Below are positions 3,076-28,400 of a stretch of DNA of 47,038 nucleotides, in pieces. Under the pieces are notes generated by a model. It saw only the letters and a list, made by a program, of their open reading frames with translations, was not told the DNA's origin and did no database searches. Source of the DNA: a virus; IMG/VR virus record IMGVR_UViG_3300045999_009686, positions 1-47,038 of that record. One strand, 5' to 3'. Position numbers and translations under genes: made by a program. Positions within the stretch are counted from its first letter, which is position 1; each line of letters starts with the position of its first letter.

Positions 3076-3635
3076 GAAGAGAAGTATCAGCTAGAACAAA
3101 AAATACGTCACCACTTAATATATTTGAACAGGTAGATGAAATAGCAAATAAAAAACGAAAAGGATTTCATGTCCTATCATATAGTTGGTATAAAGATACT
3201 GTTGCTGAAGTTGCTAGAAAGAATGATATTTACAAAACATTAGTTACGCTTGATGAAACTCTCATTCCTTCTGGGGGAAATCTGTATTTGTTTGAGTATA
3301 AAGCAACTTGGGCTAGAAAACTTCCATATTATGATGAGTTTCCTTTAGTGTACATGTTACAGGGTGGGAGGAAATTTTTTGGAGCTAATCTTCACTATTT
3401 AAATTATCCAACACGTTATAAAGTTCTACAGAGTATTATAGATGGACGACCAACAATTCCTAAGCAGTGCTTTCATAATTATGTTTATGAAGGTCTTGAT
3501 ACACCACTATTTAAAATAAATAGTGACGACTGGATGAAATCTATTTTTCTACCACTTGAAAGTTTTGTAAGTAGACAAGCAGGTTCATATAAGCAAGTTA
3601 GTAAATCCTTTGTCTGGGGAGACAGCCGTAAATGA
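3072..3635 (+). CDS. conserved phage protein of unknown function (187 aa)
   Basis: I do not assign a function. The protein has conserved-looking aromatic blocks: LPYYDEFPLVYML (84-96), FFGANLHYL (102-110) and, near the C-terminus, DWMKSIFLPLESF followed by KSFVWGDSRK. I recall a similar 'YD.FPLV...FFG.NLHYL' pattern from hypothetical proteins of other T4-like phages. It overlaps gp4 upstream (ATGA) and the tube-like protein downstream (ATGA at 3632-3635), so it is translationally coupled between a head-completion gene and a tail-tube/baseplate gene. This position suggests a virion assembly role. No signal peptide or membrane segment is visible. Confidence 0.75.
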   Translation: MRREVSARTKNTSPLNIFEQVDEIANKKRKGFHVLSYSWYKDTVAEVARKNDIYKTLVTLDETLIPSGGNLYLFEYKATWARKLPYYDEFPLVYMLQGGRKFFGANLHYLNYPTRYKVLQSIIDGRPTIPKQCFHNYVYEGLDTPLFKINSDDWMKSIFLPLESFVSRQAGSYKQVSKSFVWGDSRK

Positions 3636-4465
3636 GCATCAATACTACTCCTACAAATTTTAAAGAGTTCAAAGGTTTTGTACAAAAGCATGGCTTTTCA
3701 TTAAGTAACTTTTATGATGTGCAATTTTATCTTAGTAATGATTCTAGTAACTCTCAACTATTAAAAAATATATTTAATCTTGGGATGTCTGGTAATCCAA
3801 ATAATACCAGTGCGTCTTTTATGGAAGGACTTTTAAGATTGTATGCGGATGAATGTTCTATTCCTGGATACTCAATTTCAACTGGAGATTATAGAATAAC
3901 CAATACTCCATCAATGAAATATGCATACGGTATAGTAAACAATGAAATCACAATATCATTTATTTTAGATGCAGATGCTGAGATCAGAAGAATATTTGAT
4001 GCCTGGGGTAATTATATTTACGGTAGTGTTTCATTGGCAGGAGGAGTTGTATCAAATACTAATTTGAATTTTACTACTAAAATAGATCTTGGAAGAACTA
4101 GATATCGTGATGATTATGTAACAGATATTGTTGTGGCTAAATTGGAAAGACATAGAAGCAGTAAGAAAAATACTAGACCACGAGTTACTAATATTGATTC
4201 ACAACGTAACTTCTATGATAACAAACAAATTATACCAGATTATAATGGACCACTTCTTCCTGGATTTGGAAAACCATTTTACACATATTCAGTTAGGCTG
4301 AGGAATTGTTTTCCTACCACTATCTCTTCAATTCCATTGTCCAGTGGATCTTCTCAGTTAGTTAGAGTGCAGGTAACATTTGAATATGAACTTGCAGTGC
4401 CATCATCTCAAACTGCAGGTGGAAGTGTTCTGGAAGCATCAAACTGGTTACAGATAACTAACTAA
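3632..4465 (+). CDS. 54: gp54-like baseplate tail-tube initiator
   Basis: 277-aa protein with tail-tube-family features: LLRLYADECSIPGYSISTG, then YRITNTPSMKYAYGIV, followed by an alternating beta-strand pattern (EITISFILDAD, FDAWGNYIYG) and a C-terminal RVQVTFEYELAVP strand. These resemble T4 gp19/gp54, which polymerise or initiate the tube on the baseplate. The neighbourhood (gp48 and gp53 nearby, gp26 downstream) and the length fit gp54, which docks on gp48, better than the shorter major tube protein gp19. The exact paralogue is inferred. Confidence 0.6.
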   Translation: MSINTTPTNFKEFKGFVQKHGFSLSNFYDVQFYLSNDSSNSQLLKNIFNLGMSGNPNNTSASFMEGLLRLYADECSIPGYSISTGDYRITNTPSMKYAYGIVNNEITISFILDADAEIRRIFDAWGNYIYGSVSLAGGVVSNTNLNFTTKIDLGRTRYRDDYVTDIVVAKLERHRSSKKNTRPRVTNIDSQRNFYDNKQIIPDYNGPLLPGFGKPFYTYSVRLRNCFPTTISSIPLSSGSSQLVRVQVTFEYELAVPSSQTAGGSVLEASNWLQITN

Positions 4466-4500: not shown

Positions 4501-5211
4501 ATGCCTTTACCTAAAATTGTAACTCCGACGTATGAATTGCGTTTACCATCAACTGATCAATTAATTAAATATAGACCATTTCTAGTAAAAGAAGAAAAAG
4601 TTCTTCTGATGGCGATGGAATCTGAAGATGAATCTCAGATGATTAATGCAGTGAAAACCATCCTAAGAAATTGCATTAACTCTAAAATTAAAGTTGATGA
4701 CCTAGCAGTATTTGATATCGAATATTTGTTCCTCAATATTCGTGCTAAGTCTGTGGGAGAACAAATCGAACTCAACATCACTTGCCCAGATGATGGGGAA
4801 ACTACAGTTCCACTAGAGATTAATGTTGAGGATATTCAGATTCAAAAGTCTGAAGATCATTCTAGAATTATTTCATTGAATGATACTATTTCTGTTGTAA
4901 TGAAATACCCTAGTATGGAAATGTTTGTTAAGTCAAACTTTACAGCTAGTGTAAAAACTGAAGACGTATTTGAGATTGCTGCATCTTGCATTGAACAAGT
5001 TGTAGAAGGGGAAGATGTTTATGAAACCAAGAGTTTCTCTAAAAAAGAAATTAACGATTTCCTTGATAGCTTAGATACTGCACAGTTTTTACTGATTCAA
5101 AAATTCTTTGAGACTATGCCAAAGCTATCTCATACAGTTAAGGTTACTAACCCAGTAACAAATGTAGAAAGTGATGTGGTACTAGAAGGTCTTGCAGCTT
5201 TTTTCGCATAG
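4501..5211 (+). CDS. 26: gp26 baseplate hub / tail assembly chaperone-like protein
   Basis: 236-aa member of the T4 gp26 baseplate family. Recognisable parts are the N-terminal YELRLPSTDQLIKYRPFLVK, the EEKVLLMAMESEDE stretch, and the central beta domain VGEQIELNITCPDDGETT. It lies directly upstream of the tape-measure-like genes, the place occupied in other tailed phages by tail assembly chaperones such as lambda gpG. The last codons contain a -1 slippery heptamer at 5199-5205, just before the TAG at 5209-5211. A fraction of ribosomes is therefore predicted to continue into the gp51-like frame and make a fusion of about 297 aa (235 + 62). No clear Shine-Dalgarno sequence precedes the ATG. 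Confidence 0.85.
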   Translation: MPLPKIVTPTYELRLPSTDQLIKYRPFLVKEEKVLLMAMESEDESQMINAVKTILRNCINSKIKVDDLAVFDIEYLFLNIRAKSVGEQIELNITCPDDGETTVPLEINVEDIQIQKSEDHSRIISLNDTISVVMKYPSMEMFVKSNFTASVKTEDVFEIAASCIEQVVEGEDVYETKSFSKKEINDFLDSLDTAQFLLIQKFFETMPKLSHTVKVTNPVTNVESDVVLEGLAAFFA

Positions 5212-5232
5212 CCCTAGCGCACGAATCGCTAG
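5184..5232 (+). promoter_or_regulatory. programmed -1 ribosomal frameshift signal joining gp26 to gp51
   Basis: Three elements occur in the correct order. A Shine-Dalgarno-like AGAAGG sits at 5184-5189, 9 nt before the slip site. The heptamer T TTT TTC at 5199-5205 is in the X XXY YYZ phase relative to gp26 (0-frame codons TTT TTC). A perfect 6-bp hairpin CTAGCG/CGCTAG (5214-5219 with 5227-5232, 7-nt loop) starts after an 8-nt spacer. Slipping back one base at 5205 joins gp26 residue 235 to the gp51-like frame. This is the classic bacterial -1 layout (dnaX, lambda G/T). Confidence 0.8.
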
Positions 5233-5393
5233 AAAATTACTTTAGAATTAATTTTATATTACTTCAACATCATAAGTGGTCTCTTTCCGAAATTGAATGT
5301 ATGTTACCATGGGAAAGAGAAATTTATGTTCAGATGTTAGTTGACTATATTGAAGAGGAAAATAATAGAAACAGAACAACAACATCGTTGTAG
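5205..5393 (+). CDS. 51: gp51-like C-terminal extension made by -1 frameshift from gp26
   Basis: 62 sense codons in the -1 frame relative to gp26, ending at TAG 5391-5393 just before the next gene at 5398. The frame opens only at 5175, after a TGA at 5172-5174, and has no ATG or GTG ahead of the conserved part. The first internal ATG is near 5301 and would leave only 30 residues. The peptide contains ALAHESLENYFR, LLQHHKWSLSEIECMLPWER and EREIYVQMLVDYIEEEN. Its 'MLPWEREIY..ML' pattern resembles gp51/T-like tail chaperone extensions. In T4 gp51 is a separate assembly factor; here it is most simply made only as a gp26-gp51 fusion. Initiation at the ATA that overlaps the gp26 stop codon is the less likely alternative. 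Confidence 0.75.
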   Translation, partial: RIALAHESLENYFRINFILLQHHKWSLSEIECMLPWEREIYVQMLVDYIEEENNRNRTTTSL

Positions 5394-5397
5394 TTAA

Positions 5398-8058
5398 ATG
5401 CCAGCCAGACAAACTCAGACATCATTTAGATCATTTTCTGAGTCACTCAGATCTAGAAGACTATCTCCAGTAAATCCATCTGCGATTACTGGAGGGAGAG
5501 TGTCTGGCGCAAATATTACAAAGAAAGAAGTAGAAGAATTCGGCCAGGTCAGAAAAATCCTTGGTGGATTATTAGCATTAGAGAAAAGATATTATCAATT
5601 TTTAGGGGATAGGATTCTACATTTTGCTAAAGAAGACGAAAGAAATAAATTAAAGCAAGAAGAGTCTGAGCAAGAAAAGAAAAAGAAACTAGGAAAGGAT
5701 AAAGAAAAGAACCCTGTTTTAGAAAAAGCAAAGTCTGATCTATCAATGATCGGAGGATTCTTCAAAAATCTTCTGAAGTTTTTCGTTGGGTATAAAGTTC
5801 TTGAGTGGGCATCCAAAAAAGAAAACATAAGCAAAATTCAAGACTTTGCCAATCTATTCATAACGTTATTTAAATTCATTAGTGCAGTCACCAACTTTGG
5901 TGTTGATGTATTAATGAAAACTCTTACGGTTACTTCTAAAGTAATCAATGGAGTCTTTGATTTCATAGGAAAGGTAGCAGAATTTTTCAGCTTTAGTTGG
6001 CTGGGCGGTGGAGTAGAATGGCTATTATCCACCATTGAAAATGCTACTTCTGTTATTGCAAGTATTCCAAATGCAATTACATTAGCAGTAAAATTCATGA
6101 CTGATTTGATTCCAAATTTCCTGGAATCAGTTTTAACCCAAGGACTATTTGGTAGCCAGAAAGAACTAGAAGGTCAGGCTGATCAAGCAGTAGAAGCAAA
6201 GAAACCAGCAGAACCACAGACTCCATCAACAGAATCTGATACTGGTAAAAAAGATCTAGGAGAAAAGGCAAAAGAATCACTTTCTAATATTGGAAAGAAC
6301 ATCCTGAAGACTCTGTTCCCAGGGATGGATGTTGCTGCGAATATTGGAGCCAAGATTGGTGGTTCTATTAAATCATTATTCAGTGGACCTAAAACTCAAG
6401 AGTCTCTTCCTAAGTTAGCTAAGGGTGGTATCGTAACTAAACCAACTGAAGCGATTGTTGGTGAGGCAGGACCAGAAGCAATTCTTCCACTGGATAAATT
6501 GGGATCATTTGGTATTGATGGCTTCAAGGCATCTACCAATAAGATGATTCCTAAATTCATGAAGCTATTGACTTTACCATTTAATATTGTTGGTGCAGGA
6601 ATCGTAGCATTAATTTCATCTGCAGTATCTAAAATTCCTGGTGTAGGACAATTTATACTTCCACTGATTTCTAATATTGCATCTAGCTTTGGTTTGCCTG
6701 CAGGATTGGTTGCGGGAATGAGTAATTTTGTAGGTGGTGTTACATCTGCAATTTCTGGAGGACTTGGCAATGTAGCTGAATTATTTGGGAAGAATGAAGT
6801 CAATATACGTCAGCAGAAAGGAGAAGAGTTTTCTCCAACCAATGATACTTCAGTTAAAGGATTACTTGGAAACATTCTTGGTGCTCTGATCAGCAAGCAA
6901 AAGAAAGCTGCCACCACACCTGGAACCACGCCTCCTCCACCCCCTTCCACCCCACCAGCCCCATCTGGAACCCCTTCTAGTGGCACTTCAGGGAGCACTC
7001 CTCCAGCTACTAAGCCGAGTTCCATATTCACGTATCCAACTCAAGGAGAGGGTGGTGTTCCTGGGCAAGGCGGTGGAGATAAAATTCCTGCATTGTTAGA
7101 ACCTCAAGAGTATGTCCTGAATCGAAATGCTGTCAAGGGAATGGGTGGTCCAAAAGTATTAGATGCTATTAACTATGGAATGTATCCAAGATTTGGTAGT
7201 GGTGGTCCAAATGTTTCAACTAAAAAGTTTTTAAAGCTTGGTGGTGGATGGGCTCCTGTACCAGAAGATTCTTCTGGTGTATCGTTAGGCAGAGGAATGA
7301 GTTCACGACATGGCGGAACAGATATTCCAATGCCAGTAGGAACTCCGCTACTTGCACCTTTCGATGGAATGGTGAAAGAAACCGGAAAGAATCCTGATGG
7401 GTGGGGAAATTTCATGGTATTAAAAAGTTCCAATGGAGTTTATTCTCTGTTTGGACATGTAAGTGATTATTCTAAAAAGCAAGGTGAACAAATTAAAGCG
7501 GGTGAACAAGTTGCATTAAGTGGGCATCGACATGGAGGAGGAAGAAGTAGTGGACCACATTTACATTGGGAAATTGGTAGTTCTTGGAATGGAACTATTG
7601 GTGGAAAGATAGATCCAATTAGTTGGTCCTCTGGCAAAGCTATTCCATCTGTAAGTGGAAAAACATCATCCAGAACTAATACAGACTCTCCTGATGATTC
7701 CACAGAATCTACACCAACATTTACTGCTGAGATGGGAGCCAAAGCTGCTGAGCAGTTGGGCAAACTATTCCAGATGTTAAATGGTCCTGCACCCACTACA
7801 GTCCCAGAAGTTACCACTCCGCAGACTCCTAAAATAACAACTGCAGTTTCTGGAAACTCCCAAAATCTACAGAGAGTTCAGAGAGAAAATCTAAAAGTTC
7901 AGGCTCAAGCTAAACAGCAAACTAAAGCTGGTGGTAATGTAATAACTCTAGGCGAGCCAAATAAAACTATTACAGAATCAAGATCTCAACCAATGACATC
8001 TACATTAGGAGGCACAACTCCACCGAATTCATTAATCAATTATCCATTAGCACCATAA
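5398..8058 (+). CDS. tape-measure-like tail protein 1 with M23 peptidase domain
   Basis: 886-aa tail protein. The order of regions is: a basic N-terminus; a charged coiled stretch (about 80-110); a hydrophobic segment LLKFFVGYKVLEWASKKENI (about 125-143); further hydrophobic helices; the tape-measure signature GGIVTKPTEAIVGEAGPEA (about 343-361); a proline-rich linker (about 506-545); and a second tape-measure-type motif GGGDKIPALLEPQEYVLN (about 558). A zinc metallopeptidase M23 domain follows, with the HxxxD motif at His638/Asp642, a GH in LFGHVS, and HxH at 721-723 in SGPHLHWEI. It probably spans the tail tube and opens peptidoglycan at injection. It follows gp26/gp51 and is paralogous to the next gene. 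In T4 this position corresponds to gp29, but the sequence similarity is not obvious to me. Confidence 0.8.
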   Translation: MPARQTQTSFRSFSESLRSRRLSPVNPSAITGGRVSGANITKKEVEEFGQVRKILGGLLALEKRYYQFLGDRILHFAKEDERNKLKQEESEQEKKKKLGKDKEKNPVLEKAKSDLSMIGGFFKNLLKFFVGYKVLEWASKKENISKIQDFANLFITLFKFISAVTNFGVDVLMKTLTVTSKVINGVFDFIGKVAEFFSFSWLGGGVEWLLSTIENATSVIASIPNAITLAVKFMTDLIPNFLESVLTQGLFGSQKELEGQADQAVEAKKPAEPQTPSTESDTGKKDLGEKAKESLSNIGKNILKTLFPGMDVAANIGAKIGGSIKSLFSGPKTQESLPKLAKGGIVTKPTEAIVGEAGPEAILPLDKLGSFGIDGFKASTNKMIPKFMKLLTLPFNIVGAGIVALISSAVSKIPGVGQFILPLISNIASSFGLPAGLVAGMSNFVGGVTSAISGGLGNVAELFGKNEVNIRQQKGEEFSPTNDTSVKGLLGNILGALISKQKKAATTPGTTPPPPPSTPPAPSGTPSSGTSGSTPPATKPSSIFTYPTQGEGGVPGQGGGDKIPALLEPQEYVLNRNAVKGMGGPKVLDAINYGMYPRFGSGGPNVSTKKFLKLGGGWAPVPEDSSGVSLGRGMSSRHGGTDIPMPVGTPLLAPFDGMVKETGKNPDGWGNFMVLKSSNGVYSLFGHVSDYSKKQGEQIKAGEQVALSGHRHGGGRSSGPHLHWEIGSSWNGTIGGKIDPISWSSGKAIPSVSGKTSSRTNTDSPDDSTESTPTFTAEMGAKAAEQLGKLFQMLNGPAPTTVPEVTTPQTPKITTAVSGNSQNLQRVQRENLKVQAQAKQQTKAGGNVITLGEPNKTITESRSQPMTSTLGGTTPPNSLINYPLAP

Positions 8059-8059
8059 A

Positions 8060-11038
8060 ATGGAAAACTTAACACCAGTTAGACCAGCTTCCATTATAGG
8101 TAATAGTCGTCTAAGAGAAATCAAGACGATAAAGGGTATTGCACAAGATTTAGTAAAGCAGAAAAAACAGAATTTTGAATTGGAAAAAAAATTCTTCAAA
8201 ATTCAAAAGGATACTATTGATAGAAATAAATTAAGAGACAAAGAAAGACTTCAGGAAGCAAAGAAACCAAAAAGAAAAGCTGGATTTGTTCGTGAAGAAC
8301 TTAAAGATAAGTCTATAAAACTATTTGATTTGTTCAAGTTCTTTGTAGGATATAAAGTATTACAGTGGATGTCTCGCAAAGAGAATATTGAATCTATTGG
8401 CGAAATCGCCAAAGCCATGAAAAATATTTTTAAGATTATAGATCATCTTGCTGGTATTGGAGTTGAAGGAGTTCTTGGTGGACTTCATAGTGTTCTATTT
8501 GGAAGCAACTTTTTAGAAAGATTTTTCGGAATATTTAAACTCATAGGTGGCTTTTTCATTATCAGGAGACTATTGTTTCCAGGTAAAATACTTAAAGACA
8601 TTACTTGGATATTAAAGAATAGAAAGTCTATTGGTAAAGTATTCCAAGCATTAGGATCTGGAAAACTTAAAGAAGCTCTTGGAAGACTATTTAAACTATT
8701 AACTCCAAATTTATATGTTGTATATACCAGAGGATTGACTGCAGGAGTTAAGCGAGTAATTCTTAAAGTATTTGGAAAGAATACTTTAAAACTCCTGACT
8801 AAGGTAGCTTCTAAAATTGGATTCAGAAGTGCAAAAGAGTTTGTAAAAAATACTGCAAAAAATATTGCCAAGCCTTTAACTAGAATACCTTTCATTGGAC
8901 CTATACTTGGCTTTGGATTAAATCTAATTTTTGGTGATCCACTAGACAAGGCTGCAGTCAAAGCAATTGGTGCTGGGATTGGAGCATGGCTAGGTGGTAT
9001 TGTAATGGGCGCATTGGGAAGCATCGTTCCTGTTGCAGGAACTGCAGCTGGTGCTGGACTTGGTGCATTTGTTGGTGGATTTATTGGAGACTGGGTTGGT
9101 GATAAATTATACGGATTCTTTAAAGGATTCACCGCACCTAAAGAACCTGCACTTGCTGTTGGTGGTATTGTAACCAAGCCAACCAGGGCTTTGATTGGTG
9201 AGGCTGGGCCAGAAGCAGTTATTCCGCTACCAAAAATTTATGATAGAACTATATTAAATGCTCCTATGGGTATAGTTGCATCTTCTATGATTGGGGGGAT
9301 AGATGCAGTTATATCTTCATTGGGTCCTGTTGGCTTAACGATTAGACCATATGCATCTAGTTTACTAGCTCCATACAGAAGAGAGTTTGGATCTACCAAC
9401 TATGTGTTCACTTCTAATATTGGAGGTAAGACTACACCTTTAACTACTAAACTTCCAGAGCAAAATGACAACGAGGAAGTTGCTAAAATACTTGGTCTGA
9501 ATAAAACCATTAATTTAATCAAGAAAAAGGAAACTGCAGAAGAGGCTAAAAAAGCCAGATACAATTCTGGGAATAGTGTTCGTGAAATTCTTGGAGATAT
9601 TCTAAACAATATTATCAATCTAGACTTTACTAAAAAGTCTAAAAAGAAAACACGCCCAGGTGATACAACTAGAAATGGGGATATTGGTGAAGTTGGTGGG
9701 GAAGTAGATTTATCTGACGCTGACGATAGAACTTTATTAAAGCAACTAGCACTTGCAGAAGCTGCAGGTGAAGGTGTTGTTGGAATGGCATTGGTTGTCA
9801 ATTCTGTGTTGAATAGAAAGCGAATTTTAGATGGTGGTGCTTCTCCTGGATTATTCCATGCAACTGATAAAACTATTCGTGGAATAATATACGCCAAAGA
9901 CAGTGTTCAATATACTCCAGTTCAAAGTGGCACTATTAACAAGCAGTGGGGTGAAGGATCACTGAACCTTGCAGAGAAAGCTTTGCAAATGGGAATGGAT
10001 AAGTCTAAGTTGAGACAAGCATTGGAAGCTGAAGGAGTTAGTGAAAATAGTATAAAATTTCTAATCAATTCAACTGGATTTAGAAACTATGATGCAGGTG
10101 CAAGCAATGATAGATCTCAGAAGGTTAATGAGACTGTATATAAACGGCACACCTTTAATACTGCGGGTGTCCCTAAGATGCAACAAGGTGGTTTAGTTTC
10201 AAGAGGAGATATTACGAGTAAGTTTGGAAATAAAGAATCATTTAGAAAAAATTCTCATGAAGGAATTGATATTGCATTTCCATCTGGAACTCCTTTATCA
10301 TTTACTTTAGGTGGAAAATTTCTTAAAGTTGCTAGAAGTTCCAGTAAAGAAAGAGAAGCAAATGGTGGCTATGGTCAATACATGGATCTTAAGTTATCCG
10401 ATGGAAAGATTGCCAGACTTGCACACCTAAGCTCTATCCCCAATTGGGTAAAGCAGGGTGGCGATTTCACACCAAATGCAATTGTTGCATTAAGTGGTGG
10501 CGCACCAGGAGCACCTGGCTCTGGTAGATCTGGTGGGCCACATTTACATTTAGAGCAACACACAACTCAAAAAGATTTAGCAGAGACTTTAAATGGTAAG
10601 GTTGATCCATTATCACAAGGTCTATTTGGATTATTGAGGAAAGGTGGTGCCCCTGGAAGTGCAACTAGTGGACCTGCTCAACCTTCACAATCTCCAGCTG
10701 CATCCCCGAATACAGTAAAAGAGTCGGAAGAATCTCAGCAAGAATCGCAACCGCCACCAATTAATTATGATGACATTGCTAAAAATCTAGGAGAATTGTT
10801 CCAGATGTTAACTGGAACTCCAAAGACAAATGGTGCTCAGTTACAAAAAAATAGTATGGATTATGTCCAAGCATTCAAAGACTTCAAGCCAAATCCAGAT
10901 ACATATATTATGATGGGTGGAACTAATATAATTTCAAGTACTACATTGTTGACTCCAATTGAGCAACTAGATTATTCTTCTGGATCATTCTCAAGTATAG
11001 ATAGCGCAACTGCGTTTAAACTCAACACAAGACTCTAA
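8060..11038 (+). CDS. tape-measure-like tail protein 2 with SleB-like and M23 peptidase domains
   Basis: 992-aa paralogue of the preceding gene, starting one base after its stop codon. It shares the FKFFVGYKVLQWMSRKENI segment (about 90-108) and the GGIVTKPTRALIGEAGPEA signature (about 368-386). Between them lies a Gly/Ala-rich hydrophobic stretch (about 300-346) that could insert into membrane. A region at about 555-690 (LKQLALAEAAGEGVVGMALV, VNSVLNRKRI) resembles SleB-type cell-wall hydrolases. A second catalytic domain is M23, with His733/Asp737 in NSHEGIDIAF, a central AH in LAHLSS, and HxH at 828-830 in GGPHLHLEQ. The C-terminus (NLGELFQMLTG) matches the end region of the first paralogue (QLGKLFQMLNG). 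A role as tape measure and penetration enzyme is likely. Its stop codon overlaps the gp27 start (TAATG). Confidence 0.8.
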   Translation: MENLTPVRPASIIGNSRLREIKTIKGIAQDLVKQKKQNFELEKKFFKIQKDTIDRNKLRDKERLQEAKKPKRKAGFVREELKDKSIKLFDLFKFFVGYKVLQWMSRKENIESIGEIAKAMKNIFKIIDHLAGIGVEGVLGGLHSVLFGSNFLERFFGIFKLIGGFFIIRRLLFPGKILKDITWILKNRKSIGKVFQALGSGKLKEALGRLFKLLTPNLYVVYTRGLTAGVKRVILKVFGKNTLKLLTKVASKIGFRSAKEFVKNTAKNIAKPLTRIPFIGPILGFGLNLIFGDPLDKAAVKAIGAGIGAWLGGIVMGALGSIVPVAGTAAGAGLGAFVGGFIGDWVGDKLYGFFKGFTAPKEPALAVGGIVTKPTRALIGEAGPEAVIPLPKIYDRTILNAPMGIVASSMIGGIDAVISSLGPVGLTIRPYASSLLAPYRREFGSTNYVFTSNIGGKTTPLTTKLPEQNDNEEVAKILGLNKTINLIKKKETAEEAKKARYNSGNSVREILGDILNNIINLDFTKKSKKKTRPGDTTRNGDIGEVGGEVDLSDADDRTLLKQLALAEAAGEGVVGMALVVNSVLNRKRILDGGASPGLFHATDKTIRGIIYAKDSVQYTPVQSGTINKQWGEGSLNLAEKALQMGMDKSKLRQALEAEGVSENSIKFLINSTGFRNYDAGASNDRSQKVNETVYKRHTFNTAGVPKMQQGGLVSRGDITSKFGNKESFRKNSHEGIDIAFPSGTPLSFTLGGKFLKVARSSSKEREANGGYGQYMDLKLSDGKIARLAHLSSIPNWVKQGGDFTPNAIVALSGGAPGAPGSGRSGGPHLHLEQHTTQKDLAETLNGKVDPLSQGLFGLLRKGGAPGSATSGPAQPSQSPAASPNTVKESEESQQESQPPPINYDDIAKNLGELFQMLTGTPKTNGAQLQKNSMDYVQAFKDFKPNPDTYIMMGGTNIISSTTLLTPIEQLDYSSGSFSSIDSATAFKLNTRL

Positions 11039-15346: not shown

Positions 15347-15419
15347 GCTCCTTTAGCAATCTGGTGAATGCAGCGAACTCATAATTCGCCTGAGGCGTGT
15401 TCGATCCACGCAAGGAGCA
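15347..15419 (+). tRNA. tRNA with anticodon CAU (Met, or Ile2 if lysidine-modified)
   Basis: 73-nt cloverleaf. Acceptor GCTCCTT pairs with AAGGAGC (15412-15418), discriminator A15419. Anticodon arm GCGAA/TTCGC (15373-15377, 15385-15389) has loop CTCATAA and anticodon CAT at 15380-15382. The T-arm GCGTG/CACGC has loop TTCGATC. CCA is not encoded. The acceptor has C4-G69 and C5-G68 pairs, which I remember as features favoured by the lysidine enzyme TilS, so it could be tRNA-Ile2 reading AUA rather than an elongator Met tRNA. No dedicated promoter is seen; readthrough from 15043 is likely. Confidence 0.9.
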
Positions 15420-15420
15420 C

Positions 15421-15449
15421 TTGACAATCTGAGCAACTTCTGCTATGAT
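15421..15449 (+). promoter_or_regulatory. sigma70-type promoter for tRNA-Leu
   Basis: TTGACA (15421-15426) and TATGAT (15444-15449) with a 17-bp spacer, squeezed between the two tRNAs. The predicted start near 15456 is only a few bases before the mature 5' end of tRNA-Leu at 15459. Confidence 0.75.
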
Positions 15450-15458
15450 TGTCGCATA

Positions 15459-15532
15459 GCCCGAGTGACCCAGCGGAATGAGGTTCTCGACTTAAAATCG
15501 AGCAGTCGTGGGTTCAAATCCCACCTCGGGTA
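15459..15532 (+). tRNA. tRNA-Leu (anticodon UAA), short variable region
   Basis: Acceptor GCCCGAG pairs with CTCGGGT (one G-T pair), discriminator A15532, no encoded CCA. The anticodon stem CTCGA/TCGAG encloses loop CTTAAAA with anticodon TAA, which reads UUA. The T-arm is GTGGG/CCCAC with loop TTCAAAT. The D stem appears to have only three pairs (ACC/GGT). Oddity: only five bases (CAGTC) lie between the anticodon and T stems, whereas bacterial leucine tRNAs normally carry a long variable arm. UUA leucine codons are common in this AT-rich phage. Confidence 0.85.
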
Positions 15533-15580: not shown

Positions 15581-16042
15581 ATGCCAAAATCTAGAACCTA
15601 CACAGATGAAGATTTCATTAAAGCTGTAGAAGGGAGTGGTAGTTTGCGTCAAGTTCTTCAAAAACTCTCCTTGAGAGAAGCTGGAGGAAATTATCAGTGC
15701 GCTAAAGATAGAATTAAAAAACTAAATTTAGACACTTCTCATTTTCATGGTATGGGATGGAATAAAGGAAAAAAACTTCCTCCAAAACAACCAATTGAAT
15801 CTTATCTTGTAGATGGAAAACTTGTTCAATCAAATAATTTAAAAAAACGTATCATAAATGAAGGATTGAAAGAACATAAATGTGAAGAATGTGATATTAC
15901 TCATTGGAATGGTAAAATTGCTCCGATAGAATTAGATCATATAAATGGAGATCGGTATGATAATCGTTTAGAAAATCTTCGTATATTATGCCCCAATTGC
16001 CATGCCCAAACTCCTACATACAGAGGAAAAAACAAGTCATAA
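15581..16042 (+). CDS. HNH endonuclease (free-standing homing-type)
   Basis: 153-aa HNH nuclease. The N-terminal part (DFIKAVEGSGSLRQVLQKLS, REAGGNYQCAKDRIKKL, DTSHFHGMGWNKGKK) is a DNA-recognition region common in phage HNH proteins. The catalytic domain has a zinc pair C101-x2-C104, the H120 and N129 of LDHINGDRYDNRLENLR, and a second pair C137/C140 followed by H141. All key residues are present, so it is probably active. It sits next to two tRNAs and speD in an island between virion genes, as expected for a free-standing homing endonuclease that spreads itself and flanking DNA. Confidence 0.9.
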   Translation: MPKSRTYTDEDFIKAVEGSGSLRQVLQKLSLREAGGNYQCAKDRIKKLNLDTSHFHGMGWNKGKKLPPKQPIESYLVDGKLVQSNNLKKRIINEGLKEHKCEECDITHWNGKIAPIELDHINGDRYDNRLENLRILCPNCHAQTPTYRGKNKS

Positions 16043-16451: not shown

Positions 16452-19400
16452 ATGGCTCTAACTAGAATTACATCTGGTGGTATTGCGGAAGGCGTTGTAA
16501 TAAAGTTTGATCAAAATAATAGCCCAACAGCTCCAGCTATTGGATTTGAAGGTGTAGGTAATACTGGAACTGGTATTTACAGCCCAGCAAATAATGAATT
16601 AGCTATTTCTACAGATGGTCAAACACGATTGACCTTTAAACCTGATGGTAAAATCATTGCAGGGAATGGAACTATTCTAGGTGGAACAAACCCAGACTTT
16701 GAGAATGCAGAGAATATCACTCTTTATGTAAACCAGTCTGACAAAAATGCTACCGACCTAGAAGATAATGATGGTGGTAATTTAAATAGACCATTCAAAA
16801 CTATTGAAAGAGCATTACTAGAGGCAGCAAAGAGAAGTTATAAACCAAACCCAACTGCGATTTCCGTAAGTACATTAGAAGTTGGTAAAGCATATACTAT
16901 TGTAAACGCAGGCAATACTGATTTTGTTTCTATTGGTGCATCGTCTAATACTGCTGGTGTATCTTTCATTGCTACCGCACAAGGAAATGGAACTGGTACA
17001 GTAGTTCTAAGCAATGATAAGTTTGAGGCATTTACCATTATGGTTCTGCCTGGTCAATATGAAATTGACAACAGACCTGGATATGATATTACTACCAACC
17101 CGCTATCTGCAGGAACTGCTGTTGCAATTGATGCAGAGCCATTTAGATTTAACCCAAGAAATGGTGGCGTTATTGTACCTAGAGGTACTTCAATTGTTGG
17201 TTATGATCTCAGAAAAACTGTTATCAGACCTAAGTATGTTCCTTCACCATTTTCAATTGATGGAAGCATAACCAGTGATGGATATATTCTGTACCATACC
17301 ATGTATGATGGTGCAAATATGGTTGAAAAGAATCGTGGTTATATTCAAGAGCAAACTAAATTATATCTTCAAGGAAATCAAGCTGGATATAATGGTTTAA
17401 ATGATGCTCAAAAGAATCTATGTATTCGTGATATTGGCTATTTTATTGATGCTATTGTTAAAGATTTAAGGCAAGGTGGCAACGAGAATACCTTCAATAA
17501 TGCAGAATATTATATTGATGGTAATGGCTACAGAACACAATTCTTGAAGTCTGGTGATAGTGATTTATCTCAAGAAGTTGCAGCTACAGTAGCCGCATTT
17601 AATCATGCGATTAGCATTATGAGATTTATTACAAAATCTTATAATGATAGTAGCATTACATATTCAGAAATTACTTCTGGCAAAACTATCAACAGAACTA
17701 CATTCTCTGCAGGAAATGGATATGTTTCCGATGGAGATTGTTCTGCTGTAGTTAATGCTGTAGCAACTTTAGGTGCTATTGCTACTGGAATTCTCAACAA
17801 TCCAGATGATTACACTAGAGAAGCAGTTACAGTAACTCTTGTTGGTGGCGGAACTGCAACTGTAAAGCTCAGAAAAACTCAAGGAGTATTTAATCAAACC
17901 TCAATCTTTAAGGTAACTGGTGGTTGCTACTTCTGGCAGATGACCTTCAAGGATGCTGTTGCAACATCATCAAAGCCAATTTATAATGGAGCTTCATTTG
18001 ATTCAAATGGAATTCCAACATTCAGCACTACCACTGATTCAAAATATTCTCACCATAGAGTTGTTGCATTTACATATGCGGATCAAAGAACAACTGATGG
18101 TGAACTAGATCAGTACTATAAAAAAATTGATGCATGGCAGGGAAGACCAGATACATCTCAAGTAAGACCAGAAGAATATACTATCGTTGGTGATGGAAGT
18201 AAGAATAGCACTATTGATACTGTTAATTCTTGCTCACCATACATTTTTAACTGTTCACTACGTTCTGTCTTTGGTATGTGCGGTATGCATACTGATGGCA
18301 GTAAGGTTGCAGAAAACAGCTTCAAGTCCATGGTTGTTGCACAGTTCACTGGTATTTCTCTACAAAAAGATAGAAGTGTATTCATTCAACCTAAAGATTT
18401 ACAAGGAGATACTAACGTAACTCCATCTCCAAACACAACCACATTATATAATGATGATGATGAATCTACTACTGCAAAACCTCCAGTATTTGCAGATCCA
18501 GACGCAGAATATAAGCCAGAATGCAGACACTTCCACATCAAAGCATCCAATGGTGGATTCATTCAGGTAGTTTCTGTGTTCGCAGTTGGATATGCTGATC
18601 AATTCCTTGCAGAAACTGGTGGTGATATGTCTATCACCAACTCCAACTCTAACTTTGGTCAGATTTCACTTCGTGCAAAAGGTTCCCAGTTTAATTCCTT
18701 TGCTCCAGCATCACAAGGTAGAATCACTGCAGTAGTTCCACCTAAAGGAATCTCACCAACTCTCAATGATGTAAGTTTCTATAATATTAATGCTGGTCCA
18801 ACTTGGGGTCCAAGTACATTCGCAACAAGTGAAGAATTAACTCCAGCAGTATTAAGTGCTCTTGCAGGTTTCACTAACTCAAAATATTTTAGTCTATATC
18901 TTGAAACTGGTGCAACTAATGAAGATAGTATTCCAGAATTAATTGTTACTAGTACAGATAAAGTTACCGGCAATAAAGTAACAAAACGATTCCTAAGTTA
19001 TGGAACTTCAAATCAATACTCACTTTTCCGTGATTATTATCAAGTTACTGGAATTTCTCCAGAATCATCTAGGTATATTAACTTAGAATTAGAAAGTTCT
19101 ACTGGTGGTGAACCTAGTAAATTTAGAGCAAAGGTAAAGATATTCGATCCAACTGATATTCCAGATGAAGATAATCCAAAAGTTAATAATGTTCCAACAA
19201 CAAAGAATGCAGAAAGAGTTGGATATTTCTGGGATAATAATGGAGTATATTTAAAACTAGATTATACTGATGCAGATACTAGAAAATTCCTAACTGATTT
19301 TATCTTTTCATTCAATGAAGAAAAATCATTTGATTTTGTAACTAAATTTAATCCTGGTGATGGTTCAGCTACAACTGCACTTGAAGAAGTAACTAGAAAA

Positions 19401-22400
19401 CTTTTAAGATATAAGACTGGATTCCCATCAACTTTAACAATTAAAAAATACTTAGATACTAGAACATCTGCACCTTCAGAACTATTATGGAAGCTTGAAT
19501 ATACTATTCCAAAATACTTAAGTAGTAATGCAATTCCAAAGGCACCAGAGAAAAGATTTATTATCAAAGGAACTAGAGCAGGTAATGGTGAAGATGGAAT
19601 TCCATACTCAGACTATAGATTTATGGTATGGGATGTTCAAGAAGTTACTTCTTGGGAAAAAGATGTTAGAGATGGTGTATATTATCTAACTGTTATTAGA
19701 TGTGACGTAAATAAGTTTGCTGATTCTTCCGCAAATTCACCGTCTACCATCGAAAGGAGACCTACTGGAATTGATGCTCCTGGAACTGGAACTACTACAA
19801 CATCATTTAGTTCTACATTTATTGAAGAAGTTAATAACTTTGATAAAGATACTAAACTATTCACAAATATAAATTATCTATATCCTTCTGTAAATGAAGA
19901 AGGTCCAGATTATGATACTAGAAGAGTTTGGAATTTCCCACAAGCAGATTCTCGTGTATTACTTGAAAATATTGGCCAGGGAAATAGAATTAAAGATATC
20001 TCTGTTCCAAACTTTAAGAGTTTTAGAACAACTGATTCTACTACTCCATTTAAAGATATTCCATCTTTATATTCAGTTACTGCAGAATCTGTTCATAGAT
20101 TAGTTCAAGCACTAGATCTAAGATATATCACATCTTCTAATACTATGGCCACTACAGGTGGTGGCCCAGATAACTCTGGTAGAGTATTCATTGCCCCAGT
20201 TGCACCATGGGATTCTAGAACTTCTCAGTCTGCATTGGGGTATACTTCAAGTTCAACTTCTTTTAATGTATATTCTAGTTCAATTAGATTTGGTAGAGGT
20301 CCTGCAGGATCAATAGTTACCGAAGCATCAAAAATTACAGAGTATAATAATTTTGGTGTTAACTTGGATGCTGCGGATAGAAGAATTATCGTTACTTCTC
20401 CTGGCTATGTTGTAAATTCCAATACTATACAAGCTAGTAGTGATGCCAATCAAACTGGACTGACTTATGCTCCATTATTACCACTTTATAGACCTTCTAT
20501 TCTCCGTGCATCTTCACACACTTGGGAATATATTGGTCTTGGTTCTGGTAACTATTCAACTGGCTTCCCAAATCTACAAACAAGAGTTCTTAAAATCTAT
20601 GAGCAGTTTATTGCTCAGGGCTATGAAAATTCTGGTGGATTTATTGCATCATCTGGTACAAACTCTGCTGGTGATTTCTATATTGGAAACCAAATCATTC
20701 AAGCTGGTGGTACTTCTACAGTAACACTAAACGTACCAAAGCTTCGCAAATCATCAGAATCTAATTATCTAGATATTGACAATATTGAAAACCGTATCTC
20801 AAATGCAGTTGTCAATGTTACCGATACTGCTGATGGCTCTGGGGCAAATGCAAATCAGAGTGCATTGAAAGAACTATCCAACTTCTTCAACATTGCAAAG
20901 CTAACCGTTAGCGACAAAGCAAATATCAATAACTTGATCATTGGAGAAAGACTATTCATTGACAGAGCTGAAATTAATAATTCTGCATTCTTCCCAGAAG
21001 GTAATACTAATGCATATGGTTTCGTAAAAGCTGCTAAACCTGAAAAAACTGGTTTTATTTCAACTGATACTAACGATAAACTATATGTTTCTCCTAAGTA
21101 CCTTGATGCATGGAGAGTAAAGAGGCAACTCATTTCTGCTCAAGCAGTTACACTTGATAACAACAGAGTTTATGTTCAACCATATCTACAAAACTCTGTC
21201 GATTCATATAAATCAGTAAATGGAAAGAAAGTAGCTGATGCAATTACATTTACAAATACTGTAGTAAATGATGTTACTTGGTCAACTAGTTCAGTAATTA
21301 AACTAGCATTCACTGAAAGTTCTGGTATTCCTTCTTATGGTAAAATTGATATCGAAATGAATTTAATCGGTCTAACTGTTACCGATTTTTATGTTGATGG
21401 ATCGGGAAATAAAATTTACTTCAATCCTGTTATTAATATCCCACTTCAATATCAAGAAATTGATTATACTGATAATACAGCTGTAATTTCAAATTATCAA
21501 AATGGAATTGCATTACCTACATATCTAAGAAGTTATTGTGGCAATGGAACTTATACTTCCATAATTAAAAACTATCCATCTATCATTGCTACTGGTGGAA
21601 ATTTTGGAACAGATGCATCTGAGGGAGATATTAAATATCTAACCGCAAAACTTGCAAGTAACTTCACCAACAATAATGATATTAACGTATTAAATACTTC
21701 AACATATAAAGATCTGCAGGTTACTATGACTGCAGATGAATATCAACAATGGCCAAATAGAGGTTGCATTTCATTAAGAGAAGCTCCTAAAGGAGGAACA
21801 TATAAAATTGCTACATTTGCATATTACAAAACTGGACACAATAGTGGAACTAATGTTGCAACATTTAAACTAACTAAAAACGTTGGAGAAGGAACTAATA
21901 CTGCTGGAACTAGCGCCCAATTTACAACTGACTACGAAAATAATTATCCAGGAATTGCATCTAAAAATGTATTCTTCTTTGGATGTAGTACTCAGGTCTA
22001 TTCTTCTGATAGATGGGCAGCCGAATCTCCATTCATTCCACCTCTAGATCCAACAAAGGGTGTAGTAGAGGAAGTTAATATTGAAGATGCAATTCTGTAC
22101 ACTAGCCCACAAAAATCTCTTCCAGTTGCAGTAACTCTTGATCAAGATTGGTTTGATAAGAATTTACCTAATCCATATAGCTCTAAAGCTCTTGGTGTTA
22201 ATATTCAAGAAAGAAGAGCAGTTAAGAAATTTAGCCCTCTATTCTCATTCTCCCAGGCAAAGCAGTGGGCAGAAAACTCTGGATTTACTTCTGCTGATGA
22301 ACTAGAACTTCTTATGAAGCCTGGTTATTACAAACTAGATGGAACTCAGTTCCCATGCTCTGTTAAAATTAATGGTACTGGAGTTGCAAATAGCAGTGTA

Positions 22401-25400
22401 TTTGCTGGTAAAGAGCGTACTCGTACATCTGCAGGTAGAATGGGTGGATACCTAGAAGATACTGTCCGAAGAGGAGATAGCATTTATCTTTATCGCTCTC
22501 CCGAGTTTTACACACAATGGGGATTTGGAAATGATGCAATGTATGTAAATGTGAGTGGAGGACTTGGTGCAAATGGCTCATTTAATGTTAATAATGTACA
22601 TTTCCTTGGATTAAATGAAGCGATTACCAAGAGTGAAATTCCTGACTCCATTTATACCTCCAATCCGGTTCTTCAAAATGCCAGAAGAGTAGTAAGAAGA
22701 GCATATTATATTAAAGGAAAAATTAAATCAACTCCATCATTGAATACCATCAACAGCACTGGAGTTGACGGTGCAATTGAAGTGATTGCAAATGTTTCTA
22801 CTGGAACTGGAGTAAACGCTTTACTAGTACCAAGTGTCAATAGTATAGATATTGTAAATGATATTGCAGATAATGCAAATTATTATGAATTAAACTCTGC
22901 TACTATTTCAAATAGTCGTTATTTAGTAGTAGTACTGAAGCAAAGTGACTTTACTGCGGAACAATTTGACCGCATGAGAAAATATATCATTCCAGGTACA
23001 ACCATGTATTGGTTGGCAGAGAATGGTAAAGTAATTAAACTATCAGATGAAGCTACTGTTGAAAATCTATCCAAGTCTACTAAAGTTCTAAGTGTCAGAA
23101 GAAAGAACGCTGGTCTCAATACAGAAGAAATTCAGGTATTAATTTCAGTATATCGCACTGCAGGTGGCAATAATGGCAATAATGCAAGTTATACTAATCC
23201 CGTAGAAGATTTAGATCTAGAAGGATATACATCTGGAAAGAGAAAACTAGTCTTCCTCAATGAAGATGGAGCAGAATTTACCACACTTGCATACAACTGG
23301 GCACTTGAAACTAGAAGGCAGTTCCTTCCAAAAGGATTCATGCATGAAGGTGGTTATCAGTCAGCAATTATTAAAACAGTAGTTTCTGGTGGAGCTAGTG
23401 GAACTAAAACAATTACATTAGACAATGTTGAATCAATTTTAACAGGGGACAAAATTGTAGCTTTAGATTCTGCTGGCAACAATTTAATTCCAGTTGGAAC
23501 AAGAGTAGAGACTATTGTAGGAAATGTAATTACATTAACTGATAACATTACCACAAGCATCCCTGCTCAATCATTTGTATCATTTACACAGTTTAATATT
23601 TTTGGTGATGAGATTACTAAGTATGATATTCCTGAAATTTATGGTATCATACGTGGTTCTGAAGAAGGATACATTTCACTTATAATTGATAGAAATCCAA
23701 ACTATGAAGTTGATAATTCCATTCAACCTTATCCATATGGTGCTGGTTCATTCTCAGAATATCCAACTCAATTAATTCAATTAAAAACAACACCAACTTC
23801 AACTACAACTAATTATGGTGCAGCTGAAGATGTTGCTATTGCTACAAACAGAAAGAAAGCTCTTCCATTGAGACGAAATGGTTTCACTGAAACTAGATAT
23901 CTTGTTCTTGATATTGCTCCTAGAGAATTTGGCGCTATCCCTGCAGGAAATGCATCAAATCCAAACGCAGCTACATCTATTGATTCATTTATTGAGAATG
24001 CTGGAATTTCTAAGACTATTCTAACTCAGTTTGCAAACTATGATAACACCACTCTGCAATTTGGTGGTGGTATTGGTAAAGGATTTGTACAGCCAACTAT
24101 AAACTTTAATAATATTACTATTGCTGCTAATGCTGAGTTTACAATTGGAAGTAATGATATTCAAAGTGCAATTAATACTGCATTGAATTCTGCAGGAAGC
24201 CTCACAAATACTAGAAGTTACAATGATAGGCTATTTGCATCTTTAGTATCTAATGGAGGAACTTCATCTAATGTTGCGTTGTATGCAACTATTAATGTTA
24301 GCACTGGAGCTATTACTTCAGTTATGGCGTATAGACTTAACAGTACTCAACAAACTACCATTAATGGTTCATTTAGAATTCAGATTAATGATGGTAGAGG
24401 ATTTATTCTTTCTCCTACAGGAAGAACTGTATCATTATCAGATAACCAACTATCTGCTGACGACTTTAAAGTTGTTGCAAAGCAAAATCTTCTATCTGCA
24501 ATTGCTACTACTCCAGATACTACAGGTGGTGGATCATCTCCATATCTAGATTATGTTAGAAAGAGAACAACTGGTCCTGGAGCAAATGTAGATGATGATG
24601 CACTAACTGCTAGAGGTAAAAAGATATTTCTATCTTGGCCATATGCATATAGAGCACTCAGAAGAAGATTCCCATCTGCAGGATTCCCTGTCAATGGTAA
24701 CTATCAGAGCAGCCTAATTACCGTAAATGCAATTCCAGGATCTGGGTTCACATTAAACCTAACTGGGGTTACAATTGGTGCTCAATCTCCTGCTTCTGAA
24801 GCTGCAAATACATTTGGTGGAGGATATCGTGGAGGACTGATCAAGTGTAGAGGTTCTAAACTAACCCTAAATGGAACTAGATTTAGAGGAAATCTATCTC
24901 TTGATTGGACTGGATTGTTTAGTGGCAATTCATCTAGAGTTGGAGGTAGCTTCATTGCTGGGCACTCTATTGAGATGTTCCAGATGGAAGATCAGAATGA
25001 ATTTACTCAAATGGGTGGAGATTTACCTGCATATGCAATTGCTACTTCTCCACAAGATGAAGAATTTAGAACTCTATCAGAATATAATCCACAATCAAAT
25101 ATTTACCTAGAGCCATCTAAGGATCCATATGGTAGATTATCCGATGGTGATGCTAGAACATTCCCAATTAATACACTACAAGCTATTAGAAGATTTAATA
25201 AGTCTTCTCAGGGTGTAGTTCCTTGGACTGGAGAAAGTGAAATTCCTAAAGGAGGATTACTGACAAAAGTTGCATTGAATGAAAGATATCAAACTCCTAA
25301 TAAAATTTATTATGATGCTCCAAACGGAACTCCAACTGGAAATCATATTCCTACTGCATCTGGAAATAGTTCTGCTGTATTATTAAGATGGAATGATGGC

Positions 25401-28400
25401 ACTACAACCATCACTTCTAGTTCTCAATTGTCAATGCCTACATCTGTAGTTTCATATGCACAATTAGAACCTAAGACATTATCATTCTTCTATGCAAACA
25501 ATGAAGCAGGTGAAGATATTATTAGAAATATCTTCGTTGGTAGGAATGCAAGTAAATTTGTTAAATTTGATAACATTGAAACTACTTACGCAACAGCAAC
25601 TAAAGTTATTACCACTGGGGATACATTCTTTATCAATTCTAGTACTGGAGCTGTAACTAGAGCTGGAGCTGGACAATCAGGAGATTATAAGTTTGTAAAA
25701 ATTACATATTCCGGATCTTTCTCTGCACTATCTAAAGTTAATTCAACAAAGATTGATATTAATGTTAACTATCTAAGTTCAATTAGATATAACTATGTTG
25801 CAACTGCAACTTCACGTTATCAAAAGACTATTGTAGGAACTAACTCAAGATTAATTCTTTCCCAAGATGATAACGTTATTAGATACTCTGAGCCAGCTAA
25901 CTTAGCAATCTCTAATATTGATTCTACATTTACAGTAGCAAATGCTAGCAGATCCACAATTTATGAATTGAGAAATGTCACAAGACCTTCTGCAACATCT
26001 GGTAAAGTTGTATTGTCTACAAATAGCAGTGGAAAATTAACCAGCCTAGATATCATTTCTATTGGTAGTGGACATCTCAAGAATGATGTATTTGAAATTT
26101 ATAGTGGAGCTACAAAAATCTCTAATACATTTACAATGACAGTTAGAGATAATTACAATGAAGAATTACTTGAACTATTTGAAAATGGTGAATTTAAAGT
26201 CATTCTTCCTAACAATTGCTTTATTGTAAATAGTGTAGAAAATCCAACTATTGCTTCAAATCTAAAATCTCAGATACTAAAATCTAAGTCTATATTTAAG
26301 CCTGGTGGATATATTTTATATAATAACATTTATTACAAGATCGCTGTTAATAATCCTACAACTAACAGTCCATACATAGGTGTATACAAATATATCAATG
26401 AAACTAACACCTCTGATATTAGAGCAGATATTGTAGTGATGTTAGAAGATTCTGAGTATTCTCCAACATATCCAAGCAATACAAGATTTGATGTCTTTGA
26501 TTATGACAATATCCTAGATTATTGGCCTGCAACAGGAAGAATTGTAATTGGTAATCGTGAAACATGTGACTTCACAAAGGCCGGAAATTCATCAGATCCT
26601 AAGGGATATGAGCTTCGTCTAACAAGAAGCATGACCAAGTACTGGCCACATTACATTCGTGACTGGGAAGGTCTAGATCCAAACAATTCTTCTGATGCTA
26701 CTGTTACCGTTGATAGTGTTATTCCTACTACACTTACATTAGCAGATCCAGTAGATGTAACTTGTTATGGAATTAAGAGATTCAATGCTACAGGATCTGG
26801 AAATAACATTGAAGGTATTACTTATGGTGGATCATCTACATATGTAACTCCTACTGGAATTGTAGCTAATAAACTTGCTAAAATATCAATTAGTTCTACT
26901 ACTGATGCACAAGGATTACTCGCTGACTTTGAAAAACTTTCAATTGGTCAGACTGTTACTATTCCATATAGAGATATTTCAAAGCCTGCTGTAAGTGGAC
27001 AAGCTGCAACTAACTGGAATGCAGTCGAAATTGTTGTTGGCGATCCTCAAAATACAGCCGCATCTAACATCTCAAGTAATAGAGAAGGTGATAGACGTAT
27101 TAGTGGAAGTATTGCATATAGAACTTCAGGATTTAAAGCTGTATTTTATAAGCATACTTATAATATTCATGCAACTAATACTCAAGATACCTCAATTTAT
27201 CAGTATATCAATCCTCTTGTTTCTGCAAACTTAAGTTCCGCAAGAGATTCTTCTGTTGAGCAACTTCACCCAGGTGGATTTAGGAGATGGGGATATCTCG
27301 GTGCTATAAGTGGATTAAATGCAAATGCTGGCCAAAAAGCTCTCACAATTTCTTCTGCATTCGTAAGAAGTATGCAAAGAATTTCTAGTGCTGCAACATT
27401 TGTAGCTACATTTGATGCAATTGATACCCCAAATGATCCATATGAAAGATTAATGACTGTTTCTGCCCAGCCATCATTTGGAGCAATCACAAAAGGTCAA
27501 CCTTTATACTTAAATTCAAATTATACTAACTTGATTGGTTATGTGGTTGGTATGGATGGAGATGTCCGCTCATTAGATGATGGAACATATGAAGATTCTA
27601 TTAATCTATCTGGAAATGGAGGAATTGGAACCTACAGAGTTCTACTTGTAGAAAATCCACCAGCACTAACTGGAAATGTGACAGTATATGGACAAAAAAA
27701 TTCAACAGATTGGTTATATTATGCTCCAAACAATTGCTGTTGGATAAATAATGTCGATTATAAAGTTGTAAATTCTGATAATACAACAACTGTATATCTA
27801 AACAATAATCTAGTTGATCCTGATGGAGGAAGAAATCCTGGAGATAATCCTCCTGGCGATGGTAGCGCAAGCACACTTTCAATCGCTGCAGGTTCTAATA
27901 TTGTATTCTACTATAGTGGTTATTATGATAATAGTATAATTTTAACTCTAGATAAACCATTGACTAAAGCTATTCCAGAGGGAACGAAATTTAATATTGC
28001 ACCTACACCAGACTATGGTTATAATAATGACTATGGACATCCTGGAAAGGGACAAAATAATTCATTCCTATTCAAGTCAAGAATTCTTGATCTGGAAAAG
28101 GATGGCACAAATGGCAAGATTAATGTTTACCTTGCAGATCCATTCCCAACTGCAAATTGGAACCGAGATTCATCCGGAGCATTACTAGCGGATGGTTCAA
28201 CCACATCAAGTCCAGTTAAAACTTACGGTATGATGTACATTAATCATGGTGGATGGACTTATCCTAAGACTGGTGGTAGTGCATTCCGTGCAAATAATAT
28301 TAAACTTGCTAATGCAAATGCTAGTGATTCAGTATTCTGCACTGAAATTTATCTTCCAAATAGAAGTGGTAGAGTTAGAGCTGGAGATTTACTGTCATAC

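Follow-up and report, generated by a model that had tools for sequence, protein, structure and literature searches.

The DNA analysed here is a stretch of 47,038 nucleotides from a T4-like virus (the window), in which a gp26-like gene and a gp51-like reading frame overlap between a tail-tube-like gene and two long ORFs (Table 1). gp26 starts with the ATG at 4501 and ends with the TAG at 5209–5211, its 3' end reading GCT TTT TTC GCA TAG. The -1 frame opens at 5175, rather than at 5184 as given in the initial annotation, and extends to the TAG at 5391–5393, which yields a predicted fusion of 297 residues with 62 codons read after the slip; the peptide across the predicted gp26/T junction in the window is VTNPVTNVESDVVLEGLAAFFR. 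According to the codon list, the gp51-like frame holds no GTG, TTG or ATG before codon 33 after the slip, where its first ATG (5301) is located within the conserved domain. Apart from the opening position, reading of the sequence confirmed base for base what had been described before, that is the gp26 ORF, the phase of the heptamer, the spacing of AGAAGG, the 62-codon frame and its missing start.

Table 1. Features of the gp26/gp51 locus and its neighbours, in window coordinates.
Feature	Position	Strand	Details
Upstream tail-tube-like gene	3632..4465	+	phrog_45 tail tube, E=1.5e-31
gp26, predicted short tail assembly chaperone form (G-like)	4501..5211	+	236 codons plus stop
SD-like AGAAGG, possible stimulator	5184..5189	+	9 nt upstream of slip site
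Slippery heptamer T TTT TTC	5199..5205	+	X XXY YYZ phase
T-like domain ('gp51'), -1 frame	5205..5393	+	62 codons plus stop
gp26 stop TAG, bypassed by slipping ribosomes (predicted)	5209..5211	+	from sequence
6-bp hairpin CTAGCG-CACGAAT-CGCTAG, possible local stimulator	5214..5232	+	8 nt after heptamer
Long ORF with M23 peptidase domain, candidate tape measure	5398..8058	+	PF01551, E=7e-21
Second long ORF with M23 domain	8060..11038	+	PF01551, E=1e-7; phrog_2588, E=1.6e-44

The gp26 protein matches PF12322 (E=1e-73; 248 bits as compared to a curated cut-off of 24.5) and phrog_150 (E=7e-82). The T-like domain matches phrog_634, the family of the gp51 'assembly catalyst' (E=9e-26). A weaker match falls at the far end of phrog_150 (profile positions 236–276 of 282, E=4e-4), suggesting that in some members of this family the second domain is fused on. 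The first of the long downstream ORFs (5398–8058) has partial matches to tape-measure PHROGs, mostly via its peptidase, and its identity as tape measure derives from position only. As two consecutive long ORFs with M23 domains (5398–11038) lie behind the chaperone locus, either could be the tape measure.

The model of gp26 generated with AF2 has a mean pLDDT of 85.8. VIA-align placed its residues 1–95 closest to 3fgx (Z 7.8, 85 residues aligned, 4.2 Å) and to the HK97 tail assembly chaperone 2ob9 (Z 7.6, 84 aligned, 4.2 Å), with the third-best match at 4.2, whereby Z values just under 8 fall in the range for which the tool warns of common arrangements. The entry title of 3fgx says uncharacterised only; we take it to be a prophage chaperone relative. 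A Foldseek search of the PDB with the gp26 model returned no significant match, 2ob9 appearing at rank 3 with an E value of 0.74 that is not significant alone, and sequence profiles of gp26 and of the T domain matched nothing in the PDB. As modelled, the N-terminal domain of gp26 appears to resemble the tail assembly chaperone fold. For the T domain, the models show three helices (mean pLDDT 81 for the best model, 64–70 for the other four), and Foldseek and VIA-align comparisons with solved structures provided no usable match.

Among window ORFs on either strand with 130 codons or more (n=27, overlapping ones counted), in-phase T6 heptamers occupy 7 of 15,554 positions, and two of the 27 have any X XXY YYZ heptamer within 40 nt of the stop. 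Conservation across relatives, as described below, is a stronger argument than the rarity of the heptamer within the window. The window contains a second candidate, an A AAA AAC located 13 nt ahead of the stop in ORF 15581–16042. It was taken as chance, because only 13 codons can be read in the -1 frame before it closes and the ORF encodes an HNH endonuclease. Genes for tRNA-Met(cat) and tRNA-Leu(taa) (15347–15532) adjoin this endonuclease ORF. Elsewhere, a single ORF of 4,568 codons (16452–30158) makes up 29% of the window, and two ORFs of ~610 codons (37934–39760 and 45073–46905), both matching phrog_19111 of unknown function with E below 1e-160, look like paralogues by sequence.

Conservation of the junction among relatives

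To assess the junction beyond the window, we compiled at least 160 viral loci, many of them on the same contigs, together with phages S-BM3 and P-SSM2 and the window itself, the resulting 163 records representing 102 distinct junctions. The second domain lies in the -1 frame behind an in-phase T TTT TTC in all 102. A more distant set was found with gp26 of Sinorhizobium phage phiM12; 78 loci were listed, and after exclusion of four incomplete ones the rest gave 56 distinct junctions, each with the -1 frame and with either T TTT TTC (47) or T TTT TTT (9). Phage records examined singly (n=20, S-BM3 and P-SSM2 included) had the T6 heptamer in 19 cases, ending in C, T, A or G; these records were hand-picked from spread listings and are therefore non-random, and since the sequences are related, all counts represent non-independent trials. 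The heptamer is not built into the result, as the search patterns were peptides located away from it. Viral contigs were also scanned with gp26 of Vibrio phages D483 and D532 and of Aeromonas phage Ahp1, which revealed no relative among the matches listed.

For a combined count, 135 junctions (phiM12 being contained twice, as L165 and L183) were collapsed to 112, which comprise T TTT TTC in 102 cases, T TTT TTT in eight, T TTT TTG in one and no heptamer in one. The heptamer status of two loci lacking the FF pair (L179 and L180) was taken from direct reading of the sequence. T4 and CC31 were excluded by design from the sets of 79, 135 and 112 junctions, and Pseudoalteromonas phage XG4 (T TTT TTA) likewise lies outside these sets. 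Among the three features emphasized by the initial annotation, the heptamer is conserved across relatives (111 of 112), while the hairpin is local and the missing start codon applies in part only (31 of 79). In Pelagibacter phage Mosig (L164, 3297–4192) the heptamer begins 31 nt ahead of the gp26 stop, leaving the short form with a few extra residues, and such an early heptamer was also seen at five distinct junctions of the distant set (L188, L214, L233, L236 and L248).

The two Phe codons at the slip site, both conserved, follow the order TTT then TTC in 102 of 110 scored junctions, though overall 61% of the Phe codons of these genes are TTT. The codon in front ends in T in all 110 (AGT, TCT, GAT, GCT, AAT, CAT or ACT), while the amino acid it encodes varies between S, D, A, N, H and T; overall, 34% of the alanine and 60% of the serine codons in these genes end in T. 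When columns were ranked for excess synonymous conservation, the slip-site Phe columns took places two and four among 234. Places one, three and five went to residues 3, 13 and 2 near the gene start, where constraint is expected from initiation. This ranking and the SD analysis used 79 of 167 coding sequences, and we withhold formal P values for the codon tests because relatedness makes them unsafe. Its codon usage marks the heptamer as a signal read in decoding rather than a motif of the protein.

Of 78 dereplicated slip-site junctions, 69 carry an SD-like 4-mer in the 20 nt ahead of the slip, in 64 cases at a distance of 8–10 nt, as compared to 17% of in-frame control windows. The motif is partly forced by a conserved Glu-Gly. 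Its Glu is encoded by GAG in 48 and by GAA, as in the window, in 12 of 79 sequences; GAG makes up 32.5% in the same genes overall, and this excess favours an SD-like GAGG 8–10 nt ahead of the slip.

The initial annotation had also pointed to a perfect 6-bp hairpin, which is present exactly where described and folds, as a 19-mer, at -5.8 kcal/mol; its conservation, however, does not extend to the whole family. Considering relatives of the window, the stem is kept in L012 and L025, altered in L003, L007, L009, L014, L015, L017 and L018, and does not form in L013, L019 and L021. More generally, the 45 nt starting 5 nt past the heptamer have a mean folding z, relative to shuffled sequences, of -1.17 across 134 junctions versus -0.40 for control segments, a modest enrichment (rank test P=1.7e-6, uncorrected for kinship); the segment of the window scores -1.97. 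As the enrichment is modest and the stem confined to some near relatives, we rejected the hairpin as a general stimulator. It is possibly a local extra stimulator in the window, and forms a weak part of the argument for frameshifting.

Other routes to the second product

A change of frame could also arise during transcription, that is, by slippage of RNA polymerase on the six-T run with addition of a U. The core of the site is indeed a run of six or seven T, and the products would be identical to those of ribosomal slipping. However, C occupies the seventh position at 102 of 112 junctions and thereby holds the run at six, a length below that expected for efficient polymerase slippage. The strict codon phase and the SD-like motif 8–10 nt upstream fit ribosomal slipping instead. 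We thus regard an origin in transcription as very unlikely.

Alternatively, gp51 could be made as a protein of its own, through coupled translation or reinitiation where gp26 ends. It is shown as such a gene in several public records, the start in P-SSM2 being set 5 nt beyond the first stop-codon base, and an ATG in the -1 frame is found between positions -10 and +24 of the stop in 33 of 135 junctions. Yet an SD-like 4-mer at 5–15 nt precedes none of these 33 stop-proximal ATGs, the T run mostly filling its place. Reinitiation is possible at the 28 of 79 junctions that have an ATG in the open frame within 45 nt past the slip, while the remaining 51 have no ATG there, and 31 of 79 have no ATG, GTG or TTG over this distance; the window and its nearest relatives are likewise without a start. 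Moreover, independent translation of gp51 leaves the T6 heptamer and its synonymous conservation unexplained. As the general explanation it is, in our assessment, very improbable, although reinitiation could coexist with slipping in some relatives.

An observation against frameshifting comes from Vibrio phage D532 (L180, 2977–3890), whose gp26 ends in CTT TTC AAG TAA. A relative with a proper gp51 start and no slippery site had been sought as counter-evidence, and D532 is the one found, the other 111 of 112 junctions having the T6 heptamer. It is the only relative examined that lacks this heptamer; its T-like ORF has a TAATG start, and one gp26 copy is present. No long tape-measure-like ORF follows the T-like ORF in the annotated stretch. 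The arrangement in D532 possibly represents a third way to make the pair.

Finally, that the gp51 frame is a decayed remnant and gp26 alone matters can be given practically no credence: the frame of the window lacks a start codon, but the -1 frame is open for 56–68 codons, with conserved residues, in 79 of 79 dereplicated junctions. The three assessments are not mutually exclusive. The reading we prefer, ribosomal slipping from gp26 into the T-like frame, is consistent with the near-invariant heptamer, the frame, the missing starts and the SD-like spacing. Together with the single gene copy described below and the chaperone-resembling fold of the gp26 model, these observations support the original proposal that gp26 and the gp51-like frame constitute a -1 frameshifted G/GT-like pair.

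The gp26/gp51 pair of T4-type phages

In T4, genes 26 and 51 are placed back to back, each on a different strand, and thus cannot be joined by a slip. PF12322 aligns with residues 1–201 of T4 gp51 (E=3.9e-52), and phrog_150 with residues 3–248 of 249. A T-domain HMM from which T4 and CC31 had been withheld ranked the gp51 C-termini of T4 (E 1.4e-5) first and of CC31 (E 1.9e-5) second among 203 ORFs and found six of six T4-type gp51 C-termini, while the search behind the matching T4-type gp26 genes yielded nothing convincing (best E 0.28). By these profile matches, T4 gp51 is a full gp26-like protein with a C-terminal T domain, encoded by a separate gene. The unification of the T4-type and lambda-type systems, as suggested by the initial annotation, thus holds, with the amendment that T4 gene 51 corresponds to the whole fusion and not to the 62-codon frame alone.

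T4 gp26 keeps the GLKEFF motif, encoded with GAG TTC TTT where the slip site would be, and a T6 heptamer is absent from this site in all six T4-type gp26 genes examined. A T TTA AAG heptamer was noted in phase in KP15 gp26, 13 nt ahead of the stop. Two PF12322 copies are present in seven of seven T4-type phages (T4, CC31, Melin, RB49, KP15, VP8 and PSTRCR_127; RB49 was used for copy number only, the slip site being read in the other six). One copy was found in 19 of 19 sampled slip-site phage records and in Vibrio phage D532, as well as in nine of nine viral records including the window, which may be fragments; three of the nine share the locus of the window, and the gp26 region of another is identical to that of phiM12. 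Rather than the T4-type pair of genes, the window and both larger contigs with an identical locus (91,864 and 172,253 bases, records that may again be fragments) have one PF12322 copy each. In Klebsiella phage KP15 (L271, 2501–3795) both copies of the gp26 family stand in tandem on one strand with gp51 first, the layout in T4 being divergent; the tandem order is one that a duplication could leave.

Within the Straboviridae, the slip site is present in Schizotequatrovirus, Angelvirus and Ishigurovirus. We consider it fairly probable that the T TTT TTC slip is ancestral for the T4-like assemblage, comprising cyanophages, pelagiphages and rhizobial, Vibrio, Aeromonas, Pseudomonas and Stenotrophomonas phages, and that gene duplication replaced it in the branch of T4, Twarogvirinae and Slopekvirus, where the gp51 copy would have received the T domain in frame and the gp26 copy would have lost the slip site. 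The switch would then have taken place inside the Straboviridae. Genetic work cited in a T4 review places gp26 in the hub itself (PMC3004832), which speaks against a pure chaperone role, as such a role would not predict it.

Proposed mechanism and known systems

Taken together, we hold with high confidence that gp26 and the gp51-like frame form one frameshifted tail assembly chaperone locus that would provide a short and a long form, a reading based directly on sequence, frame, conservation, homology and the single gene copy. We infer ribosomal slipping, its rate and the binding roles, the last by analogy to lambda. Most ribosomes would stop at 5209, generating the short form of 236 residues, whereas a minority would shift into the -1 frame on T TTT TTC, tRNA-Phe pairing anew in the two sites, and continue for 62 codons to produce the 297-residue long form. 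The putative three-helix T domain of the long form may bind the tape measure protein, along which the gp26 part may polymerise in the manner of lambda gpG/gpGT. In T4 and its close relatives, whose gp26 lacks a T6 slip site, gene 51 would supply the long form.

On this interpretation, many T4-like phages would have one frameshifted chaperone locus in place of two 'baseplate hub' genes with separate names, and the frameshift would simply explain the missing or oddly started gp51 in several public records. In the public records examined, the -1 frame is unannotated in some and given a start that may go unused in others. T4 gp51, which is required for assembly and missing from the mature particle, could be read as the long form of the chaperone. 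The phages would thereby provide a natural experiment, the same two products being made via slipping in some relatives and via a duplicated gene in others.

The frameshifted chaperone as such is a known kind, and the reading of T4 gp26/gp51 is very probably published. According to the PRFect paper (PMC10885494), some T4-like phages have two genes in place of the slip, a short one and a longer, fused one, for which it cites Vladimirov et al. 2022. This study (Vladimirov, Gautam and Davidson 2022, Virology 566:9–15) appears, from its mention in PMC10885494 and PMC12846349, to cover the T4-like case. The present analysis adds the junction census, the synonymous-conservation and copy-number tests and the annotation gap in public records.

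In lambda, gpG and gpGT are made by slipping on the heptamer G GGA AAG, and the tail is built with the short and the long form; Xu, Hendrix and Duda (2004) reportedly dealt with this pair and other frameshifted tail assembly chaperones. The locus in the window resembles the lambda system in having two overlapping frames, which in the window precede a candidate tape measure gene, the heptamer just before the first stop, a second frame without its own start and, as predicted, a short and a long form. In contrast to lambda, it uses T TTT TTC with an SD-like motif upstream, and its gp26 is larger (236 codons), the model showing a further beta-rich part after the chaperone-like N-terminal domain. 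With T4 the window has in common the PF12322 family and the T domain, located in T4 at the C-terminus of gp51; T4 differs in having a separate, opposite-strand gene for the long form and two family copies, and in lacking the slip site in gp26. A similar arrangement is described for phage Adele of the Vandenendeviridae, where a conserved -1 slip likewise occurs near the end of the short form, the locus preceding the tape measure gene, albeit in a different phage family and with the motif GTTTTT (PMC12846349).
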